From contig CAMGTC010000003.1 of NCBI GenBank assembly GCA_946061765.1, positions 1 to 34,660 of the forward strand: a DNA stretch of 34,660 nucleotides, read 5' to 3'. The stretch comes from an uncultured Treponema sp. (GTDB lineage Bacteria > Spirochaetota > Spirochaetia > Treponematales > Treponemataceae). Below, piece by piece: positions 1,300 to 29,277 of this stretch. The notes under the pieces were generated by a model that was given only the letters and a program-made list of their open reading frames with translations, did no database searches and was not told where the DNA came from. Position 1 is the first letter of the stretch. The number at the start of each line of letters is the position of its first letter. The position numbers were made by a program, and so were the translations under genes.

Positions 1300-1503
1300 A
1301 TATTTAAAATCAAAAATGTGTATTTCAATGGAACTGTGTGCAAATCACAGACTGAATGCGCAACGGTAAGGTAATGGCAGTAAAAAACTGCAAAAGTTCT
1401 GTAACAATCACTGAATGAAAATTTGGGAAGATTTGAACTTTATTAATGCTCAAAGGCATTAAAATTCTAAGTCCGGAAACTTTGGTACACGCTGATAATC
1501 TAT
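1300..1503 (+). promoter_or_regulatory. Cobalamin (B12) riboswitch
   Basis: Core matches: GGAACTGTGTGCAAATCACAGACTGAATGCGCAACGGTAA and a 3' B12-box-like AAGTCCGGAAACTTTGGTAC. It lies upstream of a lipoprotein and TonB receptor. Outer boundaries are approximate. Confidence 0.82.
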
Positions 1504-1512
1504 TTCTTTAAA

Positions 1513-1586
1513 ATACGACCGGTCAAGGGAGACTTCGTTCACGCCCTTGACTCAGCCGTTTTTAGGATTTGTAATAAACCCTAAAT
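1513..1586 (+). repeat. Dispersed two-hairpin intergenic repeat, copy 2 (between riboswitch and target ORF)
   Basis: ATACGACCGGTCAAGGG...CCCTTGACTCAGCCGTTTTTAGGATTTGTAATAAACCCTAAAT. Confidence 0.92.
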
Positions 1587-1675
1587 CAAAAGCTTTAGGT
1601 TTTCATATCCTCCGTATGGATGGGTAAACTTAACATTTTGAGAATTGCGCAGATTCGATTCTCGGAGAAAATAAA

Positions 1676-2221
1676 ATGAAAAGAACTAAGTTCTCTCTCC
1701 TTAAGCTGAAACTTTCAGCTCTATTATTGTGTACAAGTATCTTTTTGACTGCTTGTAATTTTTTTAATTTTGGCGACAACTCAAGCCAGCAAGAAAATAG
1801 CTCTTCTAACGAAGAACCTTCAGAAACTATAGATTCCAACATTTACGGTGACTGGAAATCTACTTATGGAGAAAAATATTCAATTTCAAAAAATGATTAT
1901 GACAACTATTGCACTGATAAATCATCAGGTGAATATGTACTTTATTATTCAACAACTAATATTGAAATTGTACCTATAGATGGCACAAAAGGTTTTATTT
2001 ACGGTCAGTTTGATGATAAAAATCATATTGGTTACGGAGCAAGCGTTAATCAATGGTATGCTTTGTATTATGATAATCTTACAAGTTCTTCTGTTTCATT
2101 CTATCAGCCATACAAGTACGGTGGTAAAGCAGGTTGTGATACTTTAGCAGAAGCAAAGACAGAATACACTCTCGATAATGGTTATTTTAATTTATCATAT
2201 CCTTCTGAATGTACAAAATAA
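1676..2221 (+). CDS. Small lipoprotein downstream of the cobalamin riboswitch; candidate surface or periplasmic ligand-binding partner of the TonB receptor
   Basis: Lipobox-like FLTAC after a signal peptide; GGAG ribosome-binding site upstream; overlaps the start of the receptor ORF. Confidence 0.75.
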   Translation: MKRTKFSLLKLKLSALLLCTSIFLTACNFFNFGDNSSQQENSSSNEEPSETIDSNIYGDWKSTYGEKYSISKNDYDNYCTDKSSGEYVLYYSTTNIEIVPIDGTKGFIYGQFDDKNHIGYGASVNQWYALYYDNLTSSSVSFYQPYKYGGKAGCDTLAEAKTEYTLDNGYFNLSYPSECTK

Positions 2222-4182
2222 TTAATTTAATGATTAAAATTCAAAATTTTAAAATAATCATTTTTGGGGGGCTGGTATTGTATTGTTTTACATTTGCCAG
2301 CTTCCTCAAAGCTCAGGAAATTAATCTTGAAGCAGAAATTCAACTTCCTCAAATTATAACTTATCTAAACAATGACTCTGCAGTAAGTGAAGAAAGACAA
2401 GTTTTTACTTCAGAGGACATAGAAGAAAAAAATCTACCTGATTTATCTTCGTTTTTGGCCACTGCCGGCATTCAGATTTTATCTTACGGACCTTATGGTC
2501 TTGAGCAAAAAGCAAGTCTTCGCGGCTTTACTGATGAAACCGTAAGAATTGTAATTGATGGAATTTGTGTAAATAATTCCCAATACGGAACTTTTGATCT
2601 TTCTACAATCAATCTTGAAGAAATTGAAAAAATCGAAATTCTCAGGGGAGGTTTTACAGAATCGGTTTGTGACGAAGATGCTGTGGGGGGAGTAATTTAC
2701 ATAACCAGTAAAAAACAGCAGTTTGGAAATCATTTTACTTCAGATTCCTCTGTAAAAACTTATTTTTACCCTCAAAAAATATTAGACACTTTTAATCAAA
2801 GCCTATTTTATTCAGGCAGTTTTAATAACAATTTTATAAAATTAAATGCCCAGGGAACATTTGCAAATAACCAATACCCATATCTGAACTACAATAAAAA
2901 ATCAGTTCCCAGAGAAAATGCTCAAATTCTAGACGGTAACACCTCTGTAAATTTTCTACATTATTTTACAGACGGTTCATCACTTAGCCTAAATGATTTA
3001 TTCTATGCAGGTAATAAAAACACTCCGGGCTCTGCATCCACCAATAAACATGGAAATCAAAAGGATTTAGACAATATTCTTTCTATGCAATTGTTAAATC
3101 CAGCTCTTGCTCAGGGAAAGATGAAAATAGAAAATAATCTTTCCTGGCTTTCGAATACCCGTTTTTTTAAGGATTCAGCCAGTGATTCCCAACATTATAT
3201 CAACTCAATCCGTTATAATTTTACTGATAATGTAAACTTTAATAGACATTTTTTACAAGATTACGGACTTTCTTTTGATTACACTCACTTAAATTCAACA
3301 GATGACGGTTTACATAATCAGTTTAGCGGGACTTTTAAGATCACTTCAAAAGTATTTATTCCACTACACAGCAAAAATCCACAAGACTATAATCAATTTG
3401 CGTTAAGCTTACCTCTGGCAGTTAAATTTTGTGGACAGAATATGGCTTTTACACCAAAAATTGGACTTAGCGGTCAATTCTCACTCATAAATCTATCATT
3501 AAGAGGCTATAAATTAACACAATTTCCCACAATGGACGATTTGTACTGGGATGACGGCACTTACAAGGGGAATCCCGACTTAATACCGGAAGATGGCTGG
3601 GGTGGAGAGATTTCTTTATCTACTAAGACAAAAGTTTTGCCTTTTACACTTTGCATTTACTCAAATTACTATAAAAATAAAATCCAGTGGGCTGGCACAA
3701 GTCCTCAGAATATTTCAAGTGCCTTTTATCTGGGCTGCGATTTTACTGTAAGTCAGAACTTTTTGGACGACAGAATTCAACTTCAATCCTATTCTGAATA
3801 CCTGTATACAAAATTATTAAATAGGGCAAACGAATTAACTTACGGAAAAAAAATAATGTGGACACCAGATTTAGTTTCCTCTTTTACTGCTAATTTTTAT
3901 TTTCCGGAAATTGGTAAAGATAAAGTCTGGTCATCTAATCTCATTCTGGAAGCAAATTATGTTGGCAAAAGATATATTTCTAATCTGAATACAACTTATT
4001 TAGCACCATACCTTTTAATTAATCTTTCTGGACAGCTGCAAAAAAAGATGAAAAAGAACCAAAACTGGCTGCTAATTCCTTATTTTAGAATCGATAATCT
4101 TTTGAACTGGAGCTATTGTGCTATACCAGATTACCCAATGCCAGGAATAAGTCTTTCTTTAGGATTTAAAATAAAATCATAG
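2209..4182 (+). CDS. TonB-dependent outer membrane receptor (BtuB-like; probable cobalamin/corrinoid transporter)
   Basis: Plug domain ASLRGFTDETVRIVIDGICVNNSQYGTFDLSTINLEEIEKIEILRGGFTESVCDEDAVGGVIYI, then a beta-barrel ending in an aromatic/hydrophobic C-terminus; riboswitch context. An alternative start is at 2230. Confidence 0.85.
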   Translation: MYKIINLMIKIQNFKIIIFGGLVLYCFTFASFLKAQEINLEAEIQLPQIITYLNNDSAVSEERQVFTSEDIEEKNLPDLSSFLATAGIQILSYGPYGLEQKASLRGFTDETVRIVIDGICVNNSQYGTFDLSTINLEEIEKIEILRGGFTESVCDEDAVGGVIYITSKKQQFGNHFTSDSSVKTYFYPQKILDTFNQSLFYSGSFNNNFIKLNAQGTFANNQYPYLNYNKKSVPRENAQILDGNTSVNFLHYFTDGSSLSLNDLFYAGNKNTPGSASTNKHGNQKDLDNILSMQLLNPALAQGKMKIENNLSWLSNTRFFKDSASDSQHYINSIRYNFTDNVNFNRHFLQDYGLSFDYTHLNSTDDGLHNQFSGTFKITSKVFIPLHSKNPQDYNQFALSLPLAVKFCGQNMAFTPKIGLSGQFSLINLSLRGYKLTQFPTMDDLYWDDGTYKGNPDLIPEDGWGGEISLSTKTKVLPFTLCIYSNYYKNKIQWAGTSPQNISSAFYLGCDFTVSQNFLDDRIQLQSYSEYLYTKLLNRANELTYGKKIMWTPDLVSSFTANFYFPEIGKDKVWSSNLILEANYVGKRYISNLNTTYLAPYLLINLSGQLQKKMKKNQNWLLIPYFRIDNLLNWSYCAIPDYPMPGISLSLGFKIKS

Positions 4183-5538
4183 ATTTTTATTTTCTAGTTG
4201 TCTTACATATCTCCAGAAAACAAAAATCAACTGTACGAGCATTAAAACCCAAATCAAAGGTTCGCAAATTATAATGCCCCAAATTCCTAAATGAGGAATA
4301 ATAAGAGCCGTAAAAACAACTTTTCCAAGCAGTTCAATAATACTAGAAGTTAAAGGCAGAAGTTTTTTACCAAGCCCCTGTAAAGCATTTCTTGTAACTA
4401 AAAGCATTCCCAGTACCGGGAAAAATGGAATCATAAAATTAATATATTTTGAACCGTAAGATAAAATTTCTGGAGTATCAGATCCGGAAATTGCAGCAAT
4501 CAAGGCTTTAGAAATAAAAGGCATAATAATTGTACATAAAAGCCCCCAGATTGTGCACATTAAATAAAGTTCCTTTACGCCTTTTTTAATTCTGTCTACT
4601 TTTCCAGCCCCTAGATTTTGAGAAACAAAAGTGGTACCGGCCATTCCCAGGGTAAAAAGGGGAATATTTGAGATTGCAAATATTTTTCGGGCAGAAATAT
4701 GACCTGCAATAATTAATGTTCCAAATTTATTAATGGCGGACTGCAAAATAACGGTTCCAGAGTTGACTAAAGAACTCATTAAAGCCATAGAAAGCCCCTG
4801 TCCTAAAAGCTCTTTGTAGATTCTAACATCAACTTTAAAGCTCTTTTTATTTGGAATAAGAATTTTTACCCTGAATAAAATGTAAATTAAACACAAAACT
4901 GCGCTTATTCCCTGGGCCAGAACAGTTGCAATGGCAGTTCCTTCAACTCCCATTCCGAATTTTGCAATTAAAAGAATGTCCAGAAAAATATTCATAAGGG
5001 AAGAAAAAACTAGAAAAACTAAAGGCATAATAGAATTTCCAATAGCCCTTAATAATCCACTCAAAAGATTATAAGCAAACATTACACTAGACCAGGTTCC
5101 AATCAGCCAGATGTAAGAAAATGCTTCATCAAGAATTTGAGCAGGAGTTCCCAGAAGAAAAAGTAATTTTTTTAAAAAGAAAAGACAAATCAAGAAAATA
5201 AAAAGGCTTACACCTATGCTAATTAAAATTGAAGATAAAACAACTTTCTTTAGCATATTTTCATCTTTTGCACCATAAGCCCTTGCGGCTACAATTCCAA
5301 GCCCGTTACCAAAACCATTCCCAAAGCCCAGTAAAAGATTAAAAATAGCGGATGTAGCACCAATGGCAGCCAGAGAATTTTCGCCTAAAAAATGACCTAC
5401 AACGACAATATCAACAGCATTATAAAACTGCTGAAAAATAAAAGAAATTGCCATAGGAACAGCAAAAGCCAGAATAGATTTATGAATTCTGTCTTTTGTT
5501 AAATCCGGATGGAAAATTTCATTCAGATTTGAATTCAT
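4177..5538 (-). CDS. MATE family efflux transporter
   Basis: About 12 TM helices; MATE-like N-terminus (IHKSILAFAVPMAISFIFQQFYNAVDIVVVGHFLG). Confidence 0.9.
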   Translation of the reverse strand: MNSNLNEIFHPDLTKDRIHKSILAFAVPMAISFIFQQFYNAVDIVVVGHFLGENSLAAIGATSAIFNLLLGFGNGFGNGLGIVAARAYGAKDENMLKKVVLSSILISIGVSLFIFLICLFFLKKLLFLLGTPAQILDEAFSYIWLIGTWSSVMFAYNLLSGLLRAIGNSIMPLVFLVFSSLMNIFLDILLIAKFGMGVEGTAIATVLAQGISAVLCLIYILFRVKILIPNKKSFKVDVRIYKELLGQGLSMALMSSLVNSGTVILQSAINKFGTLIIAGHISARKIFAISNIPLFTLGMAGTTFVSQNLGAGKVDRIKKGVKELYLMCTIWGLLCTIIMPFISKALIAAISGSDTPEILSYGSKYINFMIPFFPVLGMLLVTRNALQGLGKKLLPLTSSIIELLGKVVFTALIIPHLGIWGIIICEPLIWVLMLVQLIFVFWRYVRQLENKNL

Positions 5539-5622
5539 AAATGCTATTCTAGCTTTCTTAAAGATGAATTAATAGATGTTTAATAAAAATTTAATAACTT
5601 TTACAAAGAATTATGAGTGTAA

Positions 5623-6228
5623 TTAAGATTGTAAAAAGTCATATTCTTTAATTTCGCAATTAGCAATCTTAAAAGCAGCAAATTCTTCGTTTGTCATGTC
5701 ATTAAAATATGCATGAATCATTCTTGCTATACCACCATGACTAACAAGAAGATAATTTTTGTTACTTCTAATTTCTTCAGATCTTAATTCATCCAGTAAA
5801 TTAAAAACTCTCTGGCACAAGTGCAGCATAGTTTCTCCATTACCATAATGATTAATGAACTGAGTTTTTGCTAAAAAGAATTCTTTATTTGCAGAACTTC
5901 TGTCGCTGCCTTCATACTTTCCAAAATTCTGTTCGGCAAGACGTGGTTCACAGCGGCTTGGAATACCTGTGTACTCAGCAATTTGTTTTGCAGTTTCTGA
6001 GGCCCTGGCTAAAGGAGAGTAGAGAATCTCATCAATTTTAAAATCATGAAAATCACCAGCATCTCCATCATTTACCTTTGCCTTTTCAATTAAGTCTCTA
6101 ACATTTTTTGCTAATTCAACAGCCTGTTTTTGTCCCCTTTCAGTAAGAGGAACATCAGTGAATCCTGCAACCTTTTTTTCTACATTCCAAACAGATTCTC
6201 CGTGGCGAACTAAATAAATCTTTGGCAT
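5623..6228 (-). CDS. Histidine phosphatase / phosphoglycerate mutase family protein
   Basis: N-terminal YLVRHGESVWN, RASETA motif and SHGG motif. Confidence 0.88.
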   Translation of the reverse strand: MPKIYLVRHGESVWNVEKKVAGFTDVPLTERGQKQAVELAKNVRDLIEKAKVNDGDAGDFHDFKIDEILYSPLARASETAKQIAEYTGIPSRCEPRLAEQNFGKYEGSDRSSANKEFFLAKTQFINHYGNGETMLHLCQRVFNLLDELRSEEIRSNKNYLLVSHGGIARMIHAYFNDMTNEEFAAFKIANCEIKEYDFLQS

Positions 6229-6375
6229 AACATAATCCTCCTTACTTAATTACTAATTTGACACTATTATAACACCATTTTGAAAATAAACAGAAAAATA
6301 GAAAATTTTCCTCACCATAAAAGCTATAAAAAGTTCTTAAGTCTTGGAAATATCATAATATGTTTTACCTCTTAC

Positions 6376-6409
6376 TTGACATTATAATATTGTATACAAT
6401 AATATTGTC
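6376..6409 (+). promoter_or_regulatory. Promoter with palindromic operator for the MarR/OhrR-type regulator
   Basis: TTGACA at 6376-6381; perfect 14-bp palindrome TATTGTATACAATA at 6388-6401; overlapping ACAATAaTATTGT at 6397-6409. Confidence 0.6.
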
Positions 6410-6435
6410 TATAAATACACAAAAAGAGGGTATAC

Positions 6436-6876
6436 ATGGATCAGACCGACAAATATGCATCATTAAGACTAGAAAATCAACTGTGTTTTCCTTTGTACGT
6501 TGTATCAAGGGAAATAATCAGAAAATACACACCTTATTTAACAAAACTCGATTTAACTTACACACAATACATAGTAATGATGGTTATGTGGGAGCATAAA
6601 AAACTTAAGATAGGGGATTTGTGCAATAAATTATTCCTTGATACAGGAACCCTTTCTCCTCTTTTAAAAGGCATGGAAAAGAAAGGCCTTATTACTCGTA
6701 CCCGCAAAAAATCGGACGAAAGAATTGTTCAAATTGAAATTACTCCAAAAGGTCAGGAATTAAGAGATAAAGCTCTGGAAGTACCTCAGAAAATCTTCTC
6801 TTGCGTACAATTATCTCCACAAGATTCCAATGATTTATACAGAATTCTTTACACAATTATTGGAAAAAATAATTAA
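6436..6876 (+). CDS. MarR family transcriptional regulator, OhrR-like
   Basis: Winged-helix protein with the OhrR-type N-terminal LCFPLY (reactive Cys) and LTYTQYIVMMVMWE. Confidence 0.85.
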   Translation: MDQTDKYASLRLENQLCFPLYVVSREIIRKYTPYLTKLDLTYTQYIVMMVMWEHKKLKIGDLCNKLFLDTGTLSPLLKGMEKKGLITRTRKKSDERIVQIEITPKGQELRDKALEVPQKIFSCVQLSPQDSNDLYRILYTIIGKNN

Positions 6877-7046
6877 GGTGTGTAAGGTCACTGGTGGCTG
6901 GTGTTCAATAACAAGGCGTTAAAAAAATTTCGAAAGCAATTTTTAGCCTTACCATCCCCCGTAACGCCCGCTAAAAAAATCCACAAATTTTTCTTTTTTT
7001 TCAATCAGTATCATTCAATGATACAGGCCCCTCATATAATTAACTT

Positions 7047-7120
7047 ATACGTCGAGTCAAGGCACGCTTCGCTCAAGACCTTGACTTCTCCGTTTTGAGG
7101 GTTTTGTAATAAACCCTCAA
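7047..7120 (+). repeat. Dispersed two-hairpin intergenic repeat, copy 3
   Basis: ATACGTCGAGTCAAGGCACGCTTCGCTCAAGACCTTGACTTCTCCGTTTTGAGGGTTTTGTAATAAACCCTCAAT. Confidence 0.92.
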
Positions 7121-7192
7121 TAAAAAAGTTGTCATCCAGACAATTCAACACTATATTAATAGTCCGTTTGGACTAGGAGGGTTATATTAAAA

Positions 7193-7912
7193 ATGAGTGA
7201 TTCTATGATTTCAATTTACATGCGTCAGATTGAACAGATTCCTTTACTTTCTGTGGAAGAAGAAAAAAGTCTTTTGATTCAGGCTTCAAAGGGAAATAAG
7301 GTTGCAAAAGATAAGCTAATTCAATCAAATCTTAGATTCGTTGTAAAAATTGCCAATCTCTATAAAAATCGGGGAGTGGAAATTGAAGATTTAATTTGCG
7401 AAGGCAACGAAGCCCTTCTTAAGGCCATAGAAAAAATGGATTTAAGTAAAAATGTTCGTTTTATTACTTACGCTTCCTTCTGGATTAGACAATATATGAA
7501 GGCCGCTATTTATAAAACTGGTCGTGCAGTCGCAATTCCACAAAATAAAGGCAGGGAATTAAAAAATCCGAACTGGAAGGCCGCAAGTCTGGACCAGCCT
7601 TTTTGCGATTCTCAGGATTCACTCACACTTATGGATTGCATTAAAGATGAAATTAATATTATCCCAGAAGATGAATGCATTAACAAAATACTTTCCTGCC
7701 AGGTAAATACCTGTCTGAATAAACTAAAAGACAAAGAATATCAGGTATTAACAAAACATTACGGTCTTAATGGAGAAAAATCAAAAAGTTATTGCGATAT
7801 TGGACAAGAAATGAACTTTTCTAGAGAAGGGGTAAGACAGATAGAAGCCCGTGCTTTAAATAAAATCCGCCAGATGGAAGAATTTTCTGAATTTGATATC
7901 AATGTTGCTTAA
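7193..7912 (+). CDS. Sigma-70 family RNA polymerase sigma factor (short RpoD/RpoS-like, lacking region 1.1)
   Basis: Region 2 (LIQSNLRFVVKIANLYKNRGVEIEDLICEGNEALLKAIEKMD...FITYASFWIRQ) and region 4 (YCDIGQEMNFSREGVRQIEARALNKIR). Confidence 0.9.
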   Translation: MSDSMISIYMRQIEQIPLLSVEEEKSLLIQASKGNKVAKDKLIQSNLRFVVKIANLYKNRGVEIEDLICEGNEALLKAIEKMDLSKNVRFITYASFWIRQYMKAAIYKTGRAVAIPQNKGRELKNPNWKAASLDQPFCDSQDSLTLMDCIKDEINIIPEDECINKILSCQVNTCLNKLKDKEYQVLTKHYGLNGEKSKSYCDIGQEMNFSREGVRQIEARALNKIRQMEEFSEFDINVA

Positions 7913-16444: not shown

Positions 16445-16518
16445 ATACGACCGGTAAAGGTACGCTTCGCTCAAGGCCTTGACTTCGCCGTTTTTAGGGT
16501 TTGTAATAAACCCTAAAT
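16445..16518 (+). repeat. Dispersed two-hairpin intergenic repeat, copy 4
   Basis: ATACGACCGGTAAAGGTACGCTTCGCTCAAGGCCTTGACTTCGCCGTTTTTAGGGTTTGTAATAAACCCTAAAT; sits between convergent stop codons. Confidence 0.92.
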
Positions 16519-16522
16519 CAGA

Positions 16523-29169: not shown

Positions 29170-29244
29170 ATACGTCTGGTCAAGGGACGCTTCACTCTTC
29201 GGCCTTGACTCAGCCGTTTTTAGGATTTGTAATAAACCCTAAAT
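29170..29244 (+). repeat. Dispersed two-hairpin intergenic repeat, copy 6
   Basis: ATACGTCTGGTCAAGGGACGCTTCACTCTTCGGCCTTGACTCAGCCGTTTTTAGGATTTGTAATAAACCCTAAAT. Confidence 0.92.
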
Positions 29245-29277
29245 AAAAAAGACCCGTGGGTTGACACGAGTCTTTTT
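29245..29277. terminator. Bidirectional intrinsic terminator downstream of hisS
   Basis: AAAAGACCCGTG GGTTGA CACGAGTCTTTTT stem with flanking A/T tracts. Confidence 0.82.

Follow-up and report, generated by a model that had tools for sequence, protein, structure and literature searches.

A riboswitch-controlled operon of Treponema pairing a BtuB-type receptor with a member of a spirochaete lipoprotein family that probably captures vitamin B12

The stretch of DNA analyzed here (the window; 34,660 nt) covers positions 1 to 34,660 of the forward strand of contig CAMGTC010000003.1 from an uncultured Treponema sp. (GCA_946061765.1), whose draft genome amounts to 2.84 Mb and is about 87% complete. 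Near its start, a cobalamin riboswitch leader is followed on the same strand by the genes for a small lipoprotein and a TonB-dependent receptor, with these features:

1318-1490, forward strand: cobalamin riboswitch aptamer (Rfam match at 1330-1480; RF00174 by cmscan)
1357-1362, forward strand: L5 loop UGCGCA of the aptamer, the kissing-loop partner, complementary to 1646-1651 and covarying in relatives
about 1514-1582/1590, forward strand: interspersed repeat of ~69 bp in the gap between aptamer and expression platform, delimited by alignment with a related locus (L032)
1605-1624, forward strand: small conserved hairpin lying after the aptamer and before the L13 hairpin, loop sequence (N)CGUAU(N)
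1640-1663, forward strand: expression-platform hairpin P13/L13, GAGAAU-UGCGCAGAUUCG-AUUCUC, with compensating stem changes in relatives
1664-1667, forward strand: Shine-Dalgarno sequence of the lipoprotein gene (GGAG), immediately after the L13 hairpin, at a position kept in relatives
1676-2221, forward strand: small lipoprotein, the proposed corrinoid-capture protein (open reading frame of 181 aa)
2230-4182 (longest open reading frame from 2209), forward strand: BtuB-type TonB-dependent receptor, from its Plug domain, profile matches, and start conservation

A preliminary description of this DNA, made from its letters, had recognized a B12 riboswitch core upstream of the lipoprotein gene at 1300-1503 and had staked its reading on how Infernal would score that stretch. 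The leader scored well above threshold (42.1 bits against the RF00174 gathering score of 31.5; E = 1.6e-7), and the extent first proposed is correct, since inspection by eye lengthens P1 to the ends GUGUA (1318-1322) and UACAC (1486-1490), which are common to the relatives. Cobalamin riboswitches are known to work through a kissing loop between L5 and L13, and the window leader has both partners, with the UGCGCA of L5 (1357-1362) matched by the UGCGCA carried in the L13 loop (1646-1651). Among relatives, both strands of the P13 stem differ (GGGAAC/GUUCCC, AGAUUC/GAAUCU, and GGAAAG/CUUUCC, among others), and the L5/L13 pairing is preserved despite changes in the loops, for example, as GGCGA/UCGCC (L056), UGAG/CUCA (L059), and UAUCC/GGAUA (L053). 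When loop partners were permuted among 21 distinct loci, with kinship between the loci ignored, mean complementarity within loci exceeded the permuted value in 4999 of 5000 trials, and it exceeded that of letter-shuffled loops in 1000 of 1000; the L5 loop was wrongly picked by the script in three loci, an error that acts against the result. A covarying kissing loop beside the Shine-Dalgarno sequence implies that the leader would act as a translational form of L5-L13 cobalamin riboswitch control.

The leader shares its core, its P1, and a kissing loop adjoining the Shine-Dalgarno sequence with translational cobalamin riboswitches in general but differs from the L5-L13 form of RF00174 in having a 69-bp genomic repeat between aptamer and expression platform. 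This element, an inverted repeat (GTCAAGG...CCTTGAC) followed by GCCGTTTTTAGGRTTTGTAATAAACCCTAAATC, occurs in 41 copies on both strands of the genome, against 0 for a reversed control pattern, with further copies in the window at 1127-1205, 16487-16519, and 29213-29245; the leader copy is missing from the nearest relative in the alignment with L032. By eye, the hairpin with the CGUAU loop is present in the leaders of most treponeme relatives.

The lipoprotein gene specifies the 181-aa lipoprotein of the preliminary description, laid out as a signal peptide (to residue 26), a tether rich in Ser and Asn (to about residue 52), and a conserved domain (residues 55 to 181). Its lipobox, LTAC, fits the pattern [LVI][ASTVI][GAS]C and ends in the lipidated Cys27 (codon at 1754-1756). 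Homologues were found in 31 of the 197 related genomes searched, and an alignment of 30 members shows an invariant lipobox cysteine (C27) along with invariant W60 and Y170 and the pattern GTWxSSxGExYxI...YxGxN...GYIYxKxT...VGKWYAxxYKxLT...SGAYKxGG...TLxEAxxEFTxxNGYF. The remark that the protein belonged to no nameable family was borne out: the window lipoprotein recovered no relative in Pfam, NCBIfam, or PDB, none of the 30 members had a meaningful match in Pfam or NCBIfam, and the 30-member profile gave nothing significant in PDB. A likeness to streptavidin (E = 0.25 in PDB) was rejected, as most of the match comes from the signal peptide and a single GTW motif. An AlphaFold model built from a two-sequence input (the window and the related locus L031) was uninformative, with a pLDDT of 42.7. 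A full-text literature search, with a coverage mostly outside subscription journals, returned no description of a spirochaete B12 lipoprotein.

Searched across the order, the 30-member profile matches 184 of 394 genomes at E ≤ 0.001, about 130 of these matches falling below 1e-9 and the weakest of the 184 being doubtful and often covering only the signal-peptide end. At E ≤ 1e-6 it reaches about eight families of Spirochaetota, among them one genus, probably Brachyspira, whose paralogues form arrays of three to five. A pattern-based scan of genome contigs for more relatives yielded one locus, and a scan of viral contigs yielded none; two putative members (L061 and L062) were removed as false or doubtful matches. 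In longer members, the domain occurs two or three times, and the family further includes tandem paralogues and riboswitch genes that lack a receptor. In L038, the family domain forms the N terminus of an 836-aa lipoprotein (5314-7824) that has no Pfam domain and lies upstream of the same type of receptor without a recognizable riboswitch. In another family of the order, multidomain members in B12 loci are adjoined by large lipoproteins (L100, 4321-5844; L102, 3766-5034; L103, 1141-2523; L104, 4814-6490), some with fibronectin-like sequence. The Brachyspira-like clusters (L119 to L123, L126, and L134) hold several other lipoprotein families of ~180 to 200 aa beside a TonB receptor, some of them preceded by sub-threshold AdoCbl-II riboswitches; these lipoproteins have no Pfam match, and the idea that they are remote paralogues was rejected because profile comparison with hhalign found no relation.

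The receptor contains a TonB plug (Pfam Plug, PF07715; E = 1.7e-16). Its longest open reading frame starts at 2209, with its first 13 bases lying in the lipoprotein gene, and the preliminary description accordingly had the two genes overlapping. We reject the overlap, which is probably a start-codon artefact, because the ATG at 2209 lies within the conserved coding tail of the lipoprotein and the ATG at 2230, eight bases past the lipoprotein stop, is conserved in the nearest relative (L032); the receptor thus probably starts at 2230. The best PDB match of a 20-member receptor profile is Bacteroides BtuB1 (8blw_A; E = 6.8e-38; positions 12 to 621 of 623), followed at nearly full length by 8bmx and two further BtuB-type entries, and these rank above the colicin I receptor, Escherichia coli BtuB (plug region), and the enterobactin receptors. 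A plug combined with full-length likeness to a solved BtuB agrees with the BtuB-like label first given to the receptor, and the finding that the best solved relatives are Bacteroides BtuB proteins backs the analogy drawn with the BtuB-BtuG pairs. TIGR01779 (TonB-B12) matches 20 of 20 receptor members and is the best NCBIfam family for the window receptor, which scores 63.2 bits against an equivalog cut-off of 599.7; with the score this far below the cut-off, we term the receptor BtuB-type rather than a proven BtuB and treat cobalamin transport as its putative function.

The association of lipoprotein, riboswitch, and receptor was counted in 67 loci holding a family member, which are best matches rather than a random sample, so the proportions are not population estimates. 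A cobalamin riboswitch above threshold lies on the same strand and ends at most 600 nt upstream of the lipoprotein gene in 44 of the 67; one more locus (L127) has its riboswitch at the operon head, before the receptor, with the lipoprotein last, bringing the number with a threshold riboswitch before the lipoprotein gene or its operon to 45, and nine further loci have a sub-threshold riboswitch at the same place. Only 3 of 48 riboswitch hits were placed elsewhere in the scanned sequence. Two riboswitch classes occur, AdoCbl-II in L052 and the Brachyspira-like clusters and RF00174 in the other loci. No recognizable riboswitch was found in L034, L038, L041, L101, and L111, nor in L102 and L103, which start near contig edges. 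In about 60 of the 67 loci, the cluster includes a TonB receptor gene. Seen from the receptor side, the lipoprotein lies no more than 1.5 kb upstream of 93 of the 150 receptors listed across the order, and for the other 57 none was detected within that distance, a set that comprises about a dozen receptors at contig starts, some with the lipoprotein 2 to 5 kb upstream, and also true absences. The genomic survey and the co-occurrence check proposed in the preliminary description thus came out in its favor, and the linkage is conserved across the phylum.

How the lipoprotein serves the receptor can be read in more than one way. Its gene lies directly upstream of the receptor gene in most loci, and BtuG provides an example of a stable lid on BtuB (PMC10404256), so that the lipoprotein might be an accessory subunit of the receptor (a lid, plug stabilizer, or assembly factor) with no corrinoid binding of its own. 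We consider this unlikely: multidomain and tandem copies are ill suited to a fixed subunit, riboswitch-lipoprotein units occur without an adjacent receptor (L054 and L132), and the lipoprotein can be paired with divergent receptors (L040 and the Brachyspira-like clusters). The multidomain, tandem, and receptor-less forms instead favor a catcher of ligand over a 1:1 partner of the receptor. Together with the swapped gene order of L127, the divergent receptor of L040 and the receptor-less units also argue that the lipoprotein is itself part of the B12 regulon. In four loci (L131, L124, L135, and L100), the operon runs on into a Peripla_BP_2 (BtuF-like) gene, a FecCD (BtuC-like) gene, or both. 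Such continuations would suit a lipoprotein that faces the periplasm, receives corrinoid from the receptor, and delivers it to a BtuF-type binding protein, and a lipobox by itself is silent on the membrane face; even so, we rate this role as improbable, given that the BtuF-like proteins of the window genome already fill it and that the long, variable, low-complexity tethers resemble those of surface lipoproteins. A capture protein at the cell surface is the reading that we retain.

Within the draft genome, the match at 1330-1480 is the only one to RF00174, and no second copy of the lipoprotein or receptor gene was found; the corresponding proteins of the related Treponema sp. RUI494 are 78% (lipoprotein) and 82% (receptor) identical. 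A B12-dependent methionine synthase (MetH) and two BtuFCD-like ABC operons are encoded in the genome (gene names assigned by visual reading of the sequences together with Pfam matches), and an imported cobamide would therefore have a use. Elsewhere in this genome (L117, 3346-3888), an open reading frame judged by eye to be CbiK-like is followed by a BtuF/FecCD/ATPase operon. Control by cobalamin riboswitches is not limited to transporter genes. Given this, and with the receptor scoring so far short of the curated cut-off for BtuB equivalogs, the operon could be regulated by B12 and yet bind and carry another substrate, such as a different metal chelate or a B12-sparing nutrient. This seems very improbable to us, because the receptor family finds its closest solved structures among B12 transporters and because the only cobalamin riboswitch of a genome bearing MetH would then regulate something other than B12 uptake.

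Taken together, we regard it as fairly probable that the operon serves B12 uptake in this treponeme, joining a translational riboswitch to a surface-type capture lipoprotein and a BtuB-type receptor, and the lipoprotein family is probably an undescribed B12-capturing family of spirochaetes. At low cobamide levels, the ribosome-binding site would be open and both proteins would be made. The lipoprotein would then sit on the outer membrane by way of the lipidated Cys27 and its flexible Ser/Asn-rich arm, capture corrinoids, and pass them to the receptor, which would import them using TonB energy. At high levels, cobamide would be bound by the aptamer and L5 (1357-1362) would pair with the loop of L13 at 1646-1651; the hairpin thus stabilized next to the Shine-Dalgarno sequence would shut off translation. 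That the lipoprotein binds corrinoid, lies on the outer face of the membrane, and delivers its ligand to the receptor is our inference from the genomic context. The preliminary description had likewise paired a capture lipoprotein with the receptor, and this overall reading is supported, as neither of the computable outcomes that it named as contrary to it (a sub-threshold leader and a lipoprotein that does not co-occur with the receptor elsewhere) was observed.

Capture of B12 with the help of lipoproteins has so far been worked out mainly in Bacteroidota. If the proposal is right, spirochaetes would be using a binder of separate evolutionary origin, belonging to a phylum-wide family, in the competition for cobamides, and a large set of hypothetical lipoproteins would gain a function; the family also supplies a small soluble domain that is directly testable for B12 binding. 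The precedent lies in outer-membrane lipoproteins of Bacteroides that capture B12 for BtuB, namely, BtuG and BtuH (PMC10404256, PMC8941943), of which BtuG acts as a lid in a stable complex with BtuB (PMC10404256) and BtuH binds B12 with picomolar affinity without forming a stable complex (PMC8941943). The BtuG-BtuB system (PMC10404256, PMC6143338) resembles the one described here in its riboswitch-controlled locus and in an outer-membrane lipoprotein encoded next to BtuB, the closest PDB relative of the window receptor family. However, BtuG is a beta-propeller of roughly 40 kDa, whereas the spirochaete domain is ~130 residues long, too small for such a fold, and gave no Pfam hit and no match to a BtuG structure in PDB at E values up to 10. 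BtuH (PMC8941943) is comparable as an accessory B12-binding lipoprotein of btuB loci with a variable copy number and domain arrangement, but it has PKD/Ig-like domains and a larger B12 domain without sequence relation to the spirochaete protein, and its C-terminal B12 domain was not matched in PDB at E values up to 10. The exported B12-binding domain BtuJ/DUF4465 (IPR027828) is found in riboswitch loci, as is the spirochaete lipoprotein, and is reported to reach Spirochaetota (PMC12751083, PMC13398666); none of the 30 members matches it in Pfam, and BtuJ1 (9fct_B) came up at no better than E = 2.1, a chance-level value. With no sequence relation to any of the three, the spirochaete lipoprotein would at most work like BtuG, BtuH, and BtuJ. 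We give roughly even chances to the broader proposition that spirochaetes evolved a corrinoid-capture domain of their own, of ~130 residues and possibly with a small beta-rich fold unlike known B12 binders, deployed singly, in tandem, or in multidomain proteins, as a fourth independent solution beside BtuG, BtuH, and BtuJ.
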